Positions 4,333 through 9,365 of a stretch of 64,000 bases of DNA are shown here, piece by piece. The stretch spans positions 434,001 to 498,000 of the forward strand of contig NZ_PUGE01000002.1 of assembly GCF_002967075.1 (NCBI RefSeq), in the 5' to 3' direction. Positions within the stretch are counted from its first letter, which is position 1; each line of letters begins with the position of its first letter. Made by a program: the position numbers and the translations under genes. A model generated the notes under the pieces. It made no database searches, was not told where the DNA came from, and saw nothing but the letters and a program-made list of their open reading frames with translations. The stretch comes from Corynebacterium sp. J010B-136 (GTDB lineage: Bacteria > Actinomycetota > Actinomycetes > Mycobacteriales > Mycobacteriaceae).

Positions 4333-4839
4333 GAACAACGATAGTTTTCGGGGGAAATCTACGAACTGGTCTTGTCCTACCCCTTACCGGTTGCGCGCCA
4401 ACCCAGGTGAGACCAGGGTCACTATTATGACCAGGGTTAAGACCACAACGATTTTTAGCAAACCTCTTCCACCGAAAAATACCGCGGGTTAAGCTTCAGA
4501 TATAAGAAGTTACCGACAGCAAAGGAGATTAGATGAAAGAAAATACGCATCATATTTCTCGACGCAACTACGGTGAGCATCCTTAAAAACAGAAGCGGCA
4601 TAGCCATAATCCAGAACTTCTAGCCACCAACAATTGTCGAAGTAGAGGAGCTACTAAGGATGCACAACGCGAATAGCGTCATCCCGAATCATCCTCAACA
4701 AGCACAGTTCTAACCGGTCAATCATTATCCACAGATAAGCAGCGGAATAACCACTGAATCGATCCGCACCTCGACCGCAAGAGTAGTACACCGCAAGTTG
4801 AGCCACATGATTCGGGATTTTCAATGAATAAACGCATAT
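4333..4839. other. Gene-poor stretch with short repeats
   Basis: No convincing gene longer than about 20 codons is seen. The stretch holds a 17-codon ORF with a good ribosome site (4533-4586) and a second 17-codon ORF at 4660-4713 that begins MHNANS. The 11-mer ATGCACAACGC occurs at 4298-4308 and again at 4660-4670. A 12-bp perfect inverted repeat, ATCCCGAATCAT at 4681-4692 and its complement at 4807-4818, encloses 114 bases. These look like decay products of former genes or small elements; nothing shows a function. Confidence 0.4.
4533..4586 (+). other. 17-codon ORF with strong ribosome site, possible gene remnant
   Basis: AAAGGAG at 4521-4527 precedes ATG 4533 and a frame reading MKENTHHISRRNYGEHP, then TAA. 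The twin arginine after a polar start looks like the first residues of a Tat signal, but no hydrophobic core follows. It could be the stump of a longer gene or a leader peptide. Weak evidence. Confidence 0.2.
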
Positions 4840-4890
4840 AAACTACCGATAGCCAGGCAATTTGTCTTAAAAGCTATCGGTAGTTTACTC
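4840..4890 (+). terminator. 14-bp inverted repeat upstream of tRNA-Glu
   Basis: AAACTACCGATAGC (4840-4853) and its perfect complement GCTATCGGTAGTTT (4873-4886) are separated by 19 bases. The flanking A-rich and T-rich ends make it usable as a terminator in either direction, and it insulates the tRNA gene, which starts 27 bases later. An operator function cannot be excluded. Confidence 0.5.
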
Positions 4891-4912
4891 TTATCAAGTC
4901 CGAAAGGTACAG

Positions 4913-4985
4913 GCCCCGTTCGTCTAGCGGCCTAGGACGCCGCCCTCTCACGGCGGTAACACGGGTTCAAATCCCGTACGGGGTA
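4913..4985 (+). tRNA. tRNA-Glu (anticodon CUC)
   Basis: A 73-nt cloverleaf. The acceptor GCCCCGT (4913-4919) pairs with ACGGGGT (4978-4984), with a G-U pair at position 1-72. The anticodon stem CCGCC/GGCGG encloses the loop CTCTCAC with anticodon CTC. The T arm CGGG-TTCAAAT-CCCG is complete and the discriminator is A4985. CCA is not encoded. The sequence closely follows other bacterial tRNA-Glu genes. A terminator hairpin begins six bases after the gene, so it is a single-gene transcript. Confidence 0.95.
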
Positions 4986-4991
4986 CAAATT

Positions 4992-5030
4992 AGAGGCAGT
5001 CAGTATTTCTACTGGCTGCCTCTTCGCATG
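4992..5030 (+). terminator. Rho-independent-type terminator of tRNA-Glu
   Basis: AGAGGCAGTCAGTA (4992-5005) pairs with TACTGGCTGCCTCT (5010-5023) with one G-T wobble around a four-base TTTC loop. The sequence after it (TCGCATGTCTTGT) is only moderately T-rich. Confidence 0.7.
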
Positions 5031-5381
5031 TCTTGTCGGTCGTGGCTTAGCTGGGGAGACCACACGGTTTCGGCCCGCGAATTTTCTAAATATCCTGGCG
5101 CAGGGGCGTGTAGTGCGAACATAATCTCCGGACTGTGCGCATGAACGGCGAAACGAATTTAGAAGCGGTCTGTCGGCAACTGTAGTCTTCCATGCTTACT
5201 GTTGCGATTTGCAGATTCTTATAGGTGATATCTGGATCCGCGAGTGAAGTGTTCAATTTGATTCAGGTTTCGCTAGAAATCTGCAGTGTCTCTACCTGCA
5301 GCTATGGCAACTTTGGCCGTTATTTGAACAATAAGTTGTTAAGTCGCGCGCGTTTACCAATTCTCTGTTACAACAGGCGTT
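5024..5381. other. Intergenic stretch without recognisable gene
   Basis: No protein-coding frame with a ribosome site, no tRNA and no strong promoter is visible. The long open frame that crosses 5225-5545 has no family resemblance and runs through the structured RNA element at 5382, so it is not taken as a gene. Confidence 0.4.
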
Positions 5382-5443
5382 GTAGATGGCCTGCCCCATT
5401 CGAGCTTCCCCCGAGGCTTGGACAGTGTGTGCGGGCCATCTAC
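5382..5443 (+). ncRNA. C-rich hairpin RNA element, copy 1
   Basis: An outer stem GTAGATGGCC (5382-5391) / GGCCATCTAC (5434-5443) encloses CTGCCCC, an inner hairpin CGAGC/GCTTG with a C-rich loop (TTCCCCCGAG), and the conserved GGACAGTGTGTGCGGG. The same architecture occurs at 8010-8073, and base changes between the copies preserve both stems (see that entry). This copy has only a weak -10-like TACAAC at 5369-5374 and no evident terminator. It lies about 110 bases upstream of the small membrane protein gene at 5556, so it may be a 5' leader element or a decayed copy. Family not recognised. Confidence 0.5.
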
Positions 5444-5555
5444 CCCGTTTGGGGAAAGACCTTTGTTGGGTCAGGGGAAATAAATCCAGTGTACGAGCGT
5501 ATATGTGTTCGATCTATTGCGTCCTATGTCCAATGCCTAGGTTAACGTCAGGCTC

Positions 5556-5870
5556 ATGACAACTGAAAAAGAAACTCAGGCACCACAGGTGCAAGAATCA
5601 GATAGTGATTCTGAAAAGAAGTTCCGTCTCGTTGATGCGCAGTGGTTGCGAGCGCAGCGTTCCGCAGTCAATGGGGAAGCCGAACTTAAAGCGTTCCAGG
5701 ACAAACTCACTGACGCCGCGACGTCGTTTCAGAACAGTCAAGGCCATGGTGTTGGCGTCGCTATCGGCATGACTCTGGGAGCCATTGTTCTTGGCATCCT
5801 AGGCGTATCACTTGGCATTTTCATCATGGTTTTGGCTGGTGACTGGATTTCTTCGATGGCGGAGGGCTAA
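5556..5870 (+). CDS. Small hypothetical membrane protein
   Basis: A 104-residue protein of unknown family. Residues 1-65 are hydrophilic and charged (KFRLVDAQWLRAQRSAVNGE). One long glycine-rich hydrophobic segment, about residues 72-97 (GVAIGMTLGAIVLGILGVSL), is followed by a short tail. It looks like a tail-anchored or single-pass protein. The ribosome site is weak (CAGG, six bases before the ATG). It is followed after three bases by another small membrane protein gene, and the two are almost certainly co-transcribed and may form a complex. Confidence 0.6.
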   Translation: MTTEKETQAPQVQESDSDSEKKFRLVDAQWLRAQRSAVNGEAELKAFQDKLTDAATSFQNSQGHGVGVAIGMTLGAIVLGILGVSLGIFIMVLAGDWISSMAEG

Positions 5871-5873
5871 ACA

Positions 5874-6335
5874 ATGGGTAAGGGTGGATCAGGCTGCGCT
5901 GCGGTCGTCGTTATTGTCTTTGTTATCGCTGTGGTGGTGTGGGCAGCAGCGATTGCATTTTGGCTCTTTGGTGGATTAGTTGTCCTCGGCTCTGTGCTGA
6001 TGGCTATCTTCGGCATAGTCCATGCATGGGCCGAAGTAGCGCGCAAAAAGGAAAGTGCTCGAACCGCAGAAGTCGTCGAACTAATGGCCCTGGATTGCGC
6101 TCAGGACCTTCGACGCTTGCAATACCATTGGGCTGAAGCGGTTACGACCAAGGGCATTGGTACGCAATTGGAAGAGAAATTGCGTCTAAACCCAGCCCTG
6201 GCAGACAACCGAAGCCGTCAAATTGAAGCGATGATTGTGCTGGTTGAACAAGCACCGGCAACCGAGCAGCGCCTCGAAGCGATTTCCCAAGCGGAAAGCT
6301 TCCGTCACGAGATACAAACGCAGATGGCGCAATAA
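5874..6335 (+). CDS. Hypothetical membrane protein with C-terminal helical domain
   Basis: A 153-residue protein of unknown family. The N-terminal half has two hydrophobic segments separated by a short turn (about residues 9-32 and 34-55). From about residue 58 on it is charged and helical (ARKKESARTAEVVELMAL) with coiled-coil tendency and no enzyme motif. It starts three bases after the preceding small membrane protein gene and ends ten bases before the convergent acetyltransferase gene. Function unknown; the pairing suggests the two proteins work together. Confidence 0.6.
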   Translation: MGKGGSGCAAVVVIVFVIAVVVWAAAIAFWLFGGLVVLGSVLMAIFGIVHAWAEVARKKESARTAEVVELMALDCAQDLRRLQYHWAEAVTTKGIGTQLEEKLRLNPALADNRSRQIEAMIVLVEQAPATEQRLEAISQAESFRHEIQTQMAQ

Positions 6336-6345
6336 AGCCCGGGTT

Positions 6346-6798
6346 CTAGGCGTTGTTTAAGAGCTCCATGGTGATGTGAGGGATGCCGTCCTCGTAGAAA
6401 ACATCGCTAACCGGAGTAAAGCCAAACGATCCGTACCAGCCTTGCAGCGGTGCTTGGGCATCCAAGACCATTTTCAGGTCGGGGTCGATTTGTGCGCAGC
6501 GTTCTAGTGCATAGGCGAAGAGTTCGCGTGCGACACCTGTGCCGCGATGCTTAGCTGCGACGACGACTCGCCCAATTCGGAGAGCATCGGCATCGCGCAA
6601 GATACGGATGGTGCCAGCAACTTCATCGTCGACAGTAACCCACAGCTGCTCGCTGTCTGGCTCTAAGTCGCGACCGTCAAGTTCTGGATAGGGGCAATTT
6701 TGCTCGACAACGAATACGTCGGTGCGGATCTGCAGAATCTTGTACAAGATGCGTGGATCCATGGTGGAGATATTTGCGTTGAAGAATTTGTGCGTCAT
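6346..6798 (-). CDS. GNAT-family N-acetyltransferase, ElaA type
   Basis: A 150-residue protein with the ElaA/YjcF-like layout: early LRTDVFVVEQNCPYPELDGRD-type segment (here LQIRTDVFVVEQNCPYPELD), then IRILRD, IGRVVVAAKHRGTGVARELF (acetyl-CoA binding loop, R-G-T-G), and a final GWYGSFGFTPVSDVFYEDGIPH. The substrate of this family is not established. The start ATG has AGGGAGTAAGCC directly upstream. The TetR gene lies 85 bases upstream in the same direction, so the two may share regulation. Confidence 0.85.
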   Translation of the reverse strand: MTHKFFNANISTMDPRILYKILQIRTDVFVVEQNCPYPELDGRDLEPDSEQLWVTVDDEVAGTIRILRDADALRIGRVVVAAKHRGTGVARELFAYALERCAQIDPDLKMVLDAQAPLQGWYGSFGFTPVSDVFYEDGIPHITMELLNNA

Positions 6799-6883
6799 GG
6801 CTTACTCCCTAAGGGTTTGGTGATGATTGCGAAATTGGTAACGGCAGTTGTTTTGAGATGGTCGCTTGAGTTAATAACGGTGT

Positions 6884-7468
6884 CTAGGCATCGGTAAGCG
6901 AATCTATCTCCTGGTTGAGAAGCAAACGCTGGGTATCCGCGCTGTACATTTCCGGATCCAGCGAGGACAGTGTGGCAAGCCCCTCTGTCAGGGCGATGAG
7001 CTTTACCGCGCAAGCTTGTGCCTCGGACTCTGAGACTGACGGCTTGAACTCTGTAACAAGACGGGTGATGCGCTGGAGCCAGTTGCGGTTGCCGGAAATA
7101 TGGAGCTGACGAATCTCGCTGTCCGGTAGGGCAGCAGCTGCAAACCCCATCCAGACACGCGCTTCCTGCTGCCTTTCGGTATCCAAGGTAAGTGAGCCGG
7201 AAAGCACCTCGTACAAGGTGTCACGTGGGTTCAGGCCAAGCTTTTCGGCTTTATCGGCGCGCGCACCAGTGCGCATGTAAAGCATTTCCCGGGCATGGGT
7301 GAGCATTGCGGTTCGGGTCTTGAATTGGTGCATAAGAAGCCCAGTGGTGCACTCAGCTCGCTCAGCCACACGCCGAACTGTCGTCGCTTCAATTCCATCA
7401 TTGGCAACTGTTTCCCATACTGCTTGGGAAAGACGCAGATTGGTGGCTTCGGTCGTGTCCTCAGACAA
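6884..7468 (-). CDS. TetR-family transcriptional regulator
   Basis: A DNA-binding regulator of about 194 residues. The N-terminal helix-turn-helix (AVWETVANDGIEATTVRRVA... followed by LLMHQFKTRTAML) occupies about residues 12-57, followed by an all-helical ligand domain of the BetI/TetR_C type. I choose the TTG at 7468, preceded by AGAGGA six bases upstream. A longer frame begins 60 bases earlier, but that segment contains a near-consensus promoter and a palindromic operator, so it is not coding. The palindrome over the predicted transcription start implies autorepression. Possible targets are the acetyltransferase downstream and itself; the ligand is unknown. Confidence 0.82.
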   Translation of the reverse strand: MSEDTTEATNLRLSQAVWETVANDGIEATTVRRVAERAECTTGLLMHQFKTRTAMLTHAREMLYMRTGARADKAEKLGLNPRDTLYEVLSGSLTLDTERQQEARVWMGFAAAALPDSEIRQLHISGNRNWLQRITRLVTEFKPSVSESEAQACAVKLIALTEGLATLSSLDPEMYSADTQRLLLNQEIDSLTDA

Positions 7469-7480
7469 AGAATTTCCTCT

Positions 7481-7528
7481 CGTAACGACTGTTACGGAAA
7501 GGTTAGAATCATTTGAGGAGGCTGTCAA
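7481..7528 (-). promoter_or_regulatory. Promoter and operator of the TetR gene
   Basis: On the minus strand TTGACA (7528-7523), a 17-base spacer and TAACCT (7505-7500) form a good sigma-A promoter. The expected start point near 7493 falls inside the perfect 6-4-6 inverted repeat CGTAACGACTGTTACG (7481-7496). A repressor bound there would block its own transcription. Confidence 0.65.
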
Positions 7529-7661
7529 CGCGGGCCCTATTTTGCTTCGATAGCCTCCGGTGTTAGAAGGTGGAGAGAGTCTTTATATGTCGAGCATGCT
7601 CGGAATATGAGCCAGAGCTAGAAGCTAGGGCCTATTAACTGGTTTCGACCAGGGGGTGGCA

Positions 7662-7866
7662 ATGAGTATTTGGGACGATATGGCTGACGCCAGCGGTGAG
7701 GCTGAGAATCTTAAGGTGCGCGCTGAGTGTATGCGCGCTATCGGCAACGAGATCTCCAAAAGGGGATGGAATCAGGCTTGACACATTCGCAAATATCGGT
7801 GCCAAAATCGGTGTCCGTGCTGAGGTTGTAGTGGAGCCCTTAGGGTGGGGTAGCGGCCAACTTTGA
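7662..7866 (+). pseudogene. HigA/XRE-type antitoxin remnant with internal deletion
   Basis: ATG 7662 opens 39 codons (MSIWDDMADASGEAEN..., then MRAIGNEISKRGWNQA) that match the start of HTH_37/XRE antitoxin-like proteins, which continue into a helix-turn-helix of about 40 residues. Here a stop comes at once (7779-7781). The other frame resumes at 7777 with LDTFANIGAKIGVRAEVVVE, the characteristic C-terminal strand of the same proteins, ending at TGA 7864-7866. The helix-turn-helix core is therefore missing and the two halves are out of frame. No toxin (HigB/RelE-like) frame is recognisable on either side. The gene is dead as written. Confidence 0.6.
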
Positions 7867-7973
7867 GTTCTTTTTCAAGGTTTTTAGGGTACGGCGACAA
7901 AATATATTCAGTTTATCTACCTGCTGGTTTGGTGGTTTTTGAAGAGTTTTAAAAACATTGTTTTGTAAATGTG

Positions 7974-8001
7974 TTGCGTACGTGAGAGAGCGTGCTATAG
8001 T
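7974..8001 (+). promoter_or_regulatory. Promoter of the C-rich hairpin RNA, copy 2
   Basis: TTGCGT (7974-7979), a 16-base spacer and TATAGT (7996-8001). The predicted start at about 8009 coincides with the first base of the outer RNA stem, which supports a dedicated RNA gene. Confidence 0.6.
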
Positions 8002-8008
8002 TGTCTTC

Positions 8009-8130
8009 AGTAGGCGGCCTGCCCCATTCAAGTATCCCCCCCGAGACTTGGACAGTGTGTGCGGGTCGTCTACCCATTTTCAGAGGAAGCCTCTTCGCGA
8101 CGGTGAAGAGGCTTCCTCGCTTTCTTCTTC
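8009..8130 (+). ncRNA. Candidate small RNA with C-rich hairpin, copy 2
   Basis: A transcript of about 120 nt is predicted from a promoter ending at 8001 and a terminator at 8083-8130. The first 64 nt repeat the element at 5382. The outer stem is GTAGGCGGCC (8010-8019) / GGTCGTCTAC (8064-8073), where the changes relative to copy 1 keep pairing through G-U wobbles. The inner hairpin CAAGT/ACTTG has a loop with seven consecutive C; copy 1 has CGAGC/GCTTG, so pairs changed from C-G to U-A and G-U to A-U without loss. TTGGACAGTGTGTGCGGG is identical in both. The C-loop recalls actinobacterial 6C RNA, which has two side-by-side C-loop hairpins, but only one is present here, inside an enclosing stem. 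Target and role unknown. Confidence 0.6.
8083..8130 (+). terminator. Strong intrinsic terminator of the small RNA
   Basis: A perfect 14-bp stem, GAGGAAGCCTCTTC (8083-8096) with GAAGAGGCTTCCTC (8105-8118), has an eight-base loop and a T-rich tail (GCTTTCTTCTTCC). No protein gene precedes it within range, so it must end the RNA transcript. Confidence 0.85.
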
Positions 8131-8146
8131 CAACTAGTGTGAAGTC

Positions 8147-8455
8147 ATGAACAGTAATGACTTTTACATAGGCACATGGGGAAGCAGTGAACCTGGCCAG
8201 CCGCACCTGGTGTTCGCTGAAGGTGGAGCGGTCTCAGGAAGCGATGGCTGCAACCGGCTCATGGGCCAGTGGACCGTGGAAGACGGTGTAATCACTTTCA
8301 GTCAGATGGCATCGACGATGATGTACTGCGAGAGTGTGGATACCTGGCTGCGTGGGGCAGTGACTGCGTATGTGCAAGAAGATGTTCTGCATATACGCGA
8401 TGGTGAGGGGGCGGAGATAGGGACGTTGTCAAAGGATTGTGCTGCCGGTGGCTAA
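8147..8455 (+). CDS. META-domain (HslJ-like) protein
   Basis: A 102-residue protein that is essentially one META/HslJ domain. It has the start GTWGSSEPGQPHLVFAEGG, the signature GSDGCNRLMGQW (about residues 30-41) and the second motif ASTMMYCE (about 57-64). Family members in other bacteria are tied to heat-shock or antibiotic tolerance, but the biochemical role is unknown. No signal peptide is seen, unlike exported HslJ. The ATG lies 17 bases after the small RNA terminator and has no strong ribosome site. Tail-to-tail with the CDF exporter gene. Confidence 0.75.
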   Translation: MNSNDFYIGTWGSSEPGQPHLVFAEGGAVSGSDGCNRLMGQWTVEDGVITFSQMASTMMYCESVDTWLRGAVTAYVQEDVLHIRDGEGAEIGTLSKDCAAGG

Positions 8456-8471
8456 GTCGGTTTAGCCGCCT

Positions 8472-9365
8472 TTAAGCGGTGGCGAGTGTGCGTGGCTCGG
8501 TGTGGATCATTGATTGGGAATTGGGGAGGGCGTTATCGATGGCGGCTTCGAGGGCATCGGCAAGCTCATGCGCGTATTCAACAGTCCACTCACCGGGCAC
8601 GGTCATGATCATGTAAACGAAACGCTGGCGGCCAGAAGCCACGGTCTTCAGGTCTTCAATGGTCACGCCGTGTTCTGCTTCAAAGTCGGTAATGGCGGCT
8701 TTGACAACGTCGACGTCTTCGGGTGGGAGAGCCTCGCTGATGAGGTTGCTGAGTGACTGTTGTAGGAGTTTGTAGCCGGTCCACAAGATGTTGACACCAA
8801 CCAGTAGGGCGATAACAGGGTCGAGCCAGAACCAGCCGGTAAACGCAACCGCGGCGATGCCGGCGACGACACCGACGGTGGTCCAAACATCGGTAAGCAA
8901 ATGGTGCCCATCGGCGTTAAGCGCTGCCGAGCGGTACTGCTTGCCTGCTTTGAGCAAAGCCAAGCCGACGCCGAGGTTAATCAGCGTTGCGGCGATGGAG
9001 AGAAACAGGCCGATACCGACTTGCTCCAAAGGGGCGGGATCTAGCAGGCGGCCGATGGCGGTGTAGATAATCATCGCAGCGGCGACGAAAATCATGGCGC
9101 CTTCTACCAGTGCTGAGACGTACTCGGATTTGCCGTGACCGAAATTGTGGTTGGCATCGGCAGGCTTAGCGGCGATGCGGGTAGCGATTAATGCCACGAT
9201 GGCGGCAACCAGATTGACGACTGATTCCAGCGCATCGGAAAAGAAGCCGACGGAGCCGGTGAGATAAGCCGCGGCGGATTTGAGCGCGATAGTTAAGATA
9301 GCAGCAGCGATGGATAAGAGCAGGAAGCGTTCGATGATCTTCTGCTCTTTTGCATGACTTGTCAT
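8472..9365 (-). CDS. Cation diffusion facilitator family metal exporter
   Basis: A 297-residue inner-membrane protein with the CDF plan: six TM segments in residues 1-205, metal-site motifs FFSDALESVVN in TM2 (Asp about 44) and DGHHLLTDVW in TM5 (HxxxD), the conserved NHNFGHGKSEY loop after TM2, and a cytosolic C-terminal domain of about 85 residues. Known members exchange Zn2+, Co2+, Fe2+ or Mn2+ for H+; the DALES/HHLLTD pair suggests a site of the mixed D-x-x-x-x / H-x-x-x-D type, and the metal cannot be named. The gene is preceded by a 130-base leader with a small upstream ORF and long-range pairing that covers the ribosome site, so expression is probably controlled at RNA level. Confidence 0.9.
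   Translation of the reverse strand: MTSHAKEQKIIERFLLLSIAAAILTIALKSAAAYLTGSVGFFSDALESVVNLVAAIVALIATRIAAKPADANHNFGHGKSEYVSALVEGAMIFVAAAMIIYTAIGRLLDPAPLEQVGIGLFLSIAATLINLGVGLALLKAGKQYRSAALNADGHHLLTDVWTTVGVVAGIAAVAFTGWFWLDPVIALLVGVNILWTGYKLLQQSLSNLISEALPPEDVDVVKAAITDFEAEHGVTIEDLKTVASGRQRFVYMIMTVPGEWTVEYAHELADALEAAIDNALPNSQSMIHTEPRTLATA

Follow-up and report, generated by a model that had tools for sequence, protein, structure and literature searches.

We analyzed a 64,000-nucleotide (nt) stretch of the genome of Corynebacterium sp. J010B-136 (contig NZ_PUGE01000002.1, positions 434,001 to 498,000; hereafter the window), in which a variable region following a tRNA-Glu gene holds a small membrane-protein gene, and a gene for a META-domain protein lies further on. 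Ahead of each of these two protein genes stands one copy of a C-rich structured element. A preliminary description, made from the sequence alone, had proposed that the two copies belong to a family of small RNAs (sRNAs) akin to 6C RNA, a widely conserved actinobacterial sRNA. Comparison with related genomes supports an sRNA family whose predicted pairing has been preserved, and points to one confined to a few species.

Two copies of a conserved hairpin

Copy 1 (outer stem at 5382-5443) and copy 2 (outer stem at 8010-8073) lie close together on the + strand and in direct orientation, separated by 2628 bases in the window and by 5034 bases in a sister species. A direct check of the sequence found both where the preliminary description had placed them. 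They adopt one shared predicted hairpin, with an outer stem of 13 base pairs (bp), an inner stem of 6 bp, and a loop that contains C5GAG or C7GAG; the hairpin and its C5 to C7 loop had been recognized earlier, with stem lengths, 10 bp and 5 bp, that proved too short. The substitutions described as differing between the copies while preserving their pairing are present. Both copies are stable as single strands, as is the 120-nt transcript predicted for copy 2 (8006-8125; z = -7.35): for each of the three, 0 of 200 dinucleotide shuffles were equally stable (z-scores of the copies are in Table 1).

We built a covariance model, R1, from five sequences: the two copies of the window's genome (G000), two of the sister species (G194) and one of a third species (G110). 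A CAU/GUG pairing of the minimum-energy fold was omitted from the model, being broken in G110. Among 242 Corynebacterium genomes R1 finds the element in three, with two copies each in G000 and G194 and one in G110; these five score 88.1-95.3 bits, and the next best candidate in the genus 24.3 bits. A laxer search of the same three genomes returned the same five copies, with a maximum of two per genome, and a separate search of 397 genomes of the order gave nothing above 27.0 bits besides G000. Copy 1 was not found in G110 by R1, including the laxer search, and that species has copy 2 alone. Searches over more than 40 genomes scored few candidates per genome (in G000, 21 of 332 with R1 and 16 of 610 with R2, the 6C model described below), and absences in them are not proofs. 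Homologues with preserved pairing elsewhere, set as a test by the preliminary description, were in this way found in two other species.

The element is conserved beyond its surroundings at copy 1, where identity between the window and G194 (Table 1) exceeds that of the upstream intergenic DNA (285/383, 74%) and of four neighboring genes (91-94%). Copy 2 is identical to its G194 counterpart at 67 of 67 positions and to that of G110 at 53 of 67, the corresponding values for the flank upstream of its promoter being 54/62 and 37/62. The loop, CCCCCGAG, is unchanged across all five aligned copies, and a 3' segment, ACAGYGYGYGCGGG, is conserved although partly unpaired in the model. Across the four distinct sequences all 74 of 74 pair cells are standard pairs, a percentage that 1 of 500 shuffles matched, and the covariation score of the alignment was likewise reached by 1 of 500. 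Changes on both sides occur at four pairs, a count reached by 16/500 shuffles; the number of pair types was reached by 128/500. When partners were slid by one to three columns as a control, pairing fell to 27-49%. The covariation thus backs the predicted fold, yet is no strong statistical proof, as the sequences are few and the structure was derived from the same ones.

A pattern scan of genome contigs gave two matches in unrelated metagenome-assembled genomes, which we take as chance, in a collection that may leave out near relatives; the scan of viral contigs gave no match. Two sets of candidate relatives were rejected. Plasmid matches, among those listed (20 of 172 records), covered the tRNA-Glu stretch alone; 25 Escherichia phage records matched, and the 20 listed cover only the stretch of the copy-2 terminator hairpin, at E of about 0.1.

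Promoter, terminator and neighboring genes

Copy 2 has promoter-like hexamers and a terminator of its own. The TTGCGT-N16-TATAGT reported in the preliminary description stands before it (Table 1), and TTGCGY-N16-TAKAGT precedes copy 2 in all three species, hexamers and spacing preserved. Derived from the three species, this degenerate form has a single match in the 64-kb window, at copy 2 itself, with 0.03 expected. Conservation of the promoter region overall does not exceed that of the flank given above (27/32 in G194, 19/32 in G110), and the site is absent from the results of a strict sigma-70 consensus scan; the promoters described for C. glutamicum have a TAnnnT -10 box and a weak -35 (PMC3890552). 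The terminator is also present, with a stem of 16 bp in place of the 14 bp first given. A terminator scan of the region returned two sites against a shuffle mean of 3.7, the copy-2 stem exceeding the other by 10 pairs. G110 has at this position a hairpin unrelated in sequence, again with a T-rich tail; the terminator seems to have been retained where its sequence was not.

Copy 1 would most likely yield a similar RNA, though it shows no clear promoter and no terminator in the scan. Its -10 candidate reads TACAAC in the window and TACGGT in G194. Upstream of copy 1 lies the conserved block TTGTTAAGTCGCGCGCGTTTAC, a possible regulatory site, identical in G194 despite the 74% identity of the upstream intergenic DNA; it recurs nowhere else in the window when up to three mismatches are allowed. 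By eye this block holds an imperfect palindrome and may be the site of a regulator. Just 3' of copy 1, at 5451-5480, is a small hairpin (GACCT...GGGTC) with GGGGAAA on both sides; its pairing is preserved in G194, where the second repeat reads GGGAAA, and the G tracts at this site might bind the C loop of copy 1 itself.

Table 1. Features of the element and its surroundings in the window.
Feature	Position	Strand	Basis
Conserved block TTGTTAAGTCGCGCGCGTTTAC upstream of copy 1, possible regulatory site	5336..5357	+	22 bp identical in G194
Copy 1, structured element	5381..5445	+	fold z -5.39; 88.7 bits with R1; 64/65 identity to G194
C5 loop of copy 1, then GAG	5408..5412	+	sequence and alignment
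TAACGT, likely -10 box of leaderless membrane-protein gene (5556-5870)	5543..5548	+	3/3 orthologues
Predicted promoter of copy 2, TTGCGT-N16-TATAGT	7974..8001	+	hexamers kept in three species; predicted start
Copy 2, structured element	8009..8075	+	fold z -3.80; R1 matches in three genomes; pairing kept
C7 loop of copy 2, then GAG	8036..8042	+	tract located; putative seed
Intrinsic terminator of copy 2, 16 bp, loop GACG, then T-rich tail	8083..8118	+	terminator scan; fold z -6.09
TAGTGT, likely -10 box of leaderless META-domain gene (8147-8455)	8135..8140	+	4/4 orthologues

Independence of the element from its neighboring genes is well supported. TANNNT lies 6-7 nt before the META start in all four orthologues read, and 7-8 nt before the ATG of the gene at 5556 in all three, each set including one orthologue without the element; the background ahead of ATGs in the window is 60 of 2090. 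A fourth species (G127) carries both downstream genes, and neither element was found there. Leaderless mRNAs are reported to make up 33% in C. glutamicum (PMC3890552). Because of these leaderless-type -10 boxes, the G127 genes that stand without elements, and the commonness of leaderless mRNAs in C. glutamicum, we conclude that both downstream genes probably initiate on their own and that the copies are not their leaders.

Were the element instead a cis-acting leader, an orphan riboswitch or attenuator that senses something, the terminator would control the META gene (copy 2) or the small membrane-protein gene (copy 1). We consider this unlikely, though several observations fit it: each copy shares its strand with the gene that follows, 28 nt separate the end of the copy-2 terminator stem from the META start, copy 2 lies ahead of the META gene in the window, G194 and G110 alike, and two overlapping 6-base stretches of the G110 terminator hairpin complement the C loop of the same copy, making self-pairing possible. 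The META start of G194 is TTG, moreover, a poor fit with leaderless initiation, as the leaderless starts given in the C. glutamicum study are AUG and GUG only (PMC3890552). A leader is harder to reconcile with the G127 genes and with a leaderless-type -10 box between element and start in every orthologue read. No exact Watson-Crick complement of at least 5 bases joins the element to the terminator region in the window, in a search of exact matches only, which leaves no antiterminator evident there; for copy 1 the scan shows no terminator; and the downstream genes belong to no common class, Pfam assigning a META domain to the protein after copy 2 and giving no match for the small membrane protein after copy 1.

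The surroundings of the copies vary. In the region after tRNA-Glu (4986-6345) copy 1 and two small genes are present in the window and in G194; G110 has there a different open reading frame (ORF) of 399 codons, stop to stop, on the - strand; and in G127 relatives of the two small genes sit beyond the META gene. By eye, 7662-7782 of the window is a remnant of a small helix-turn-helix gene whose frame ends early; a longer relative lies beyond the GNAT gene in G110, and another before the META gene in G127.

A proposed trans-acting function

We favor, with modest confidence, the reading that the copies are clade-restricted paralogous noncoding RNAs, of which copy 2 would be a stand-alone RNA that silences mRNAs in trans through pairing of its C loop with G tracts. 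We infer that copy 2 would be driven by its own promoter, with its start slightly upstream of the stem and its end at the terminator, to give an RNA of about 110-120 nt. Its long GC-rich hairpin would display a loop in which five to seven C precede GAG, and this loop, acting as the seed, would pair in trans with G tracts around ribosome-binding sites and lower translation, as the loops of 6C/B11 do. Published work has 6C/B11 act by base pairing between its C loops and G-rich ribosome sites, and by analogy the element probably does the same: in M. abscessus B11 is reported to repress a reporter with a six-G tract in its 5' untranslated region, either C loop being sufficient, and the pairing is supported by loop mutants (PMC10470900).

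A pattern search suggests potential targets for such a loop in all three species. In raw counts, overlaps included, a GGGGGG tract stands 2-14 nt before ATG 21 times in G000, 39 times in G194 and 24 times in G110; the reversed pattern gives 3, 18 and 6 in the same order. Those sites of G000 whose sequence is also found in G194 lie ahead of genes encoding cytochrome c oxidase subunit III, a helix-turn-helix protein, and one protein that Pfam does not match; we regard these three genes as target candidates only.

Several points weigh against this interpretation. The covariation is thin, coming from four distinct sequences only; copy 1 has neither a terminator in the scan nor a clear promoter; and the self-complementarity of the G110 copy, described above, makes self-pairing of its loop possible. 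The G-tract counts include, besides overlaps, the antisense of copy 2 itself, and Shine-Dalgarno sites are G-rich anyway. No G-tract site identical in G000 and G194 appears in the list for G110.

The RNA might work by binding a protein, as a sponge or a scaffold read at its C-rich loop, in place of pairing with mRNAs. The invariance of CCCCCGAG in five copies and the conservation of the partly unpaired ACAGYGYGYGCGGG would suit such a role; no protein partner was indicated in this analysis, however, and the screen reported for 6C found no chaperone (PMC8628891), so that we judge protein binding quite improbable.

Relation to 6C RNA

Judged by model score, the element falls outside 6C. Rfam, run at gathering and at permissive thresholds, found no family at the element and, at gathering, no 6C in the window, its matches being tRNA and others far below their cut-offs. 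The 6C family itself (RF01066, curated gathering score 47 bits) had no match in 4800-8700 at E <=5, and none at the element in the homologues at E <=10. Within the genus RF01066 matches 37 of 61 genomes at E <=1, and only 9 of the 61 pass gathering (28 of the 37 matched genomes miss the cut-off); a C. glutamicum control misses it as well. Because most corynebacterial 6C matches fall short of the Rfam cut-off, we added R2, a genus-specific 6C model of 24 sequences that includes the 5' hairpin. R2 gives 118.6 bits to the 6C RNA of G228, a genome taken to be C. glutamicum, at 314677-314783, which agrees with 314679-314787 reported for cgb_03605 of C. glutamicum (PMC4046766). On the element strand it gives 5-11 bits, and unrelated stretches reach 12.

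That the element is a genuine 6C RNA, only strongly diverged, is very unlikely, although some likeness exists. The element and most of the aligned corynebacterial 6C RNAs have GGCCTGCCCC and a C-run-GAG loop in common, and the best local similarity to the 24 6C RNAs was reached by only 6/400 dinucleotide shuffles for copy 1 and 2/400 for copy 2. The G110 copy is unremarkable in the same comparison (74/400), the element has one C loop and not two, RF01066 does not match it, and its scores with the genus model lie within background. Both GGCCTGCCCC and TATCCCCCCCGAGA are common to copy 2 and hairpin 1 of the 6C RNA of one other genome (G100). These words, together with the model scores, agree with the preliminary description, which called the element related in style to 6C with a different architecture. 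Common descent of the loop hairpin and 6C is plausible, not proven. Weak R1 matches in other Corynebacterium genomes were considered as traces of 6C homology and rejected: several sit in 6C loci, yet some fall on the opposite strand, where they reflect the GC-rich stem.

That the copies are a duplicated DNA element without RNA function, such as mobile-element ends or a protein-binding palindrome, is hardly credible: two near copies 2.6 kb apart and the absence of the copy 1 region from G110, with another ORF in its place, would fit, but the copies are direct repeats, none of the eight ORFs scanned between and around them matches a transposase family (two match nothing), no genome has more than two copies and one species has copy 2 alone, pairing is kept partly through G-U wobbles that suit RNA and not DNA, and promoter hexamers and terminator are retained. 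Insertion-sequence ends, the refuting case raised at the outset, do not fit the direct orientation, the ORFs scanned or the species with copy 2 alone.

The usual 6C locus is empty in the species that bear the element. All four Corynebacterium 6C loci whose flanks were read adjoin a HAD phosphatase gene (by Pfam on the G000 orthologue). In M. tuberculosis we take rv3660c and rv3661 to be ssd and a HAD gene. B11/6C of that species is placed between rv3660c and rv3661 (PMC8628891). Next to the orthologous HAD gene of G000, G194 and G110 the intergenic DNA contains no stretch of six C, and that of G194 has a single CCCCC near the start of the next gene; the element is located elsewhere in these three genomes. 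R2 finds 6C in 161 of the 242 genus genomes at E <=1, and G000, G194, G110 and G127 are not among them, the absence from G127 being a result of R2 alone.

A C-rich 6C-like RNA does occur near the sigma-70 gene sigA (G000:C21:274643-274702). It scores 31.9 bits with RF01066 in G000, below the cut-off, with no match in G194 or G110; under R2 its score is 19-23 bits in each of these three genomes. By DNA search it is present in G000, G194, G110 and G127; a match in a further genome (G065) spans 25 bases only. It resembles the element in its C-rich loop followed by GAG and in occurring in all three element-bearing species, and differs in keeping a part like the second hairpin of 6C and in its presence in G127, where the element was not found. 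Its first hairpin is degenerate and its second intact, and it is possibly the displaced 6C RNA of the clade. A displaced and degenerate RNA of the 6C kind seems to be carried by all four species, three of which bear the element as well. We tentatively suggest that in this clade the ancestral 6C was lost from its old locus and that C-loop regulation is now split among a rearranged 6C near sigA and two one-loop paralogues, a scenario we regard as possible and no better than that. If true, a conserved actinobacterial sRNA was rebuilt and split within one genus, with the C-run-GAG loop as the sole working part kept.

We found no description of the element in the open-licence literature on 6C and C-rich-loop RNAs and on Corynebacterium, and it looks like a new, species-restricted relative of 6C; an sRNA family can be restricted to a few species and go unlisted in Rfam. 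How 6C selects its targets through the C-rich loops is little understood. A natural one-loop variant, present in two copies where the usual 6C locus is empty, would isolate the loop as the part that matters and would offer a simple system for C-loop/G-tract regulation.

The known system to which the element stands closest is 6C RNA (RF01066; B11 in mycobacteria, cgb_03605 in C. glutamicum). Both are intergenic, about 100 nt long as a known or a predicted sRNA, and found in the same genus; both present a C run in a hairpin loop, usually followed by GAG, and the element shares with most of the 6C RNAs aligned the 5' flank GGCCTGCCCC noted above. The corynebacterial 6C RNAs that we aligned mostly begin with a 5' hairpin ending GGCCTGCC and have two hairpins with loops of about 5-9 C, usually followed by GAG or GAT. 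The element, in contrast, has a single C loop in one long hairpin, the second hairpin of copy 2 being a plain terminator with the loop GACG; it carries the extra conserved 3' segment ACAGYGYGYGCGGG, and it lies at another genomic locus, with scores in 6C models that remain within background.

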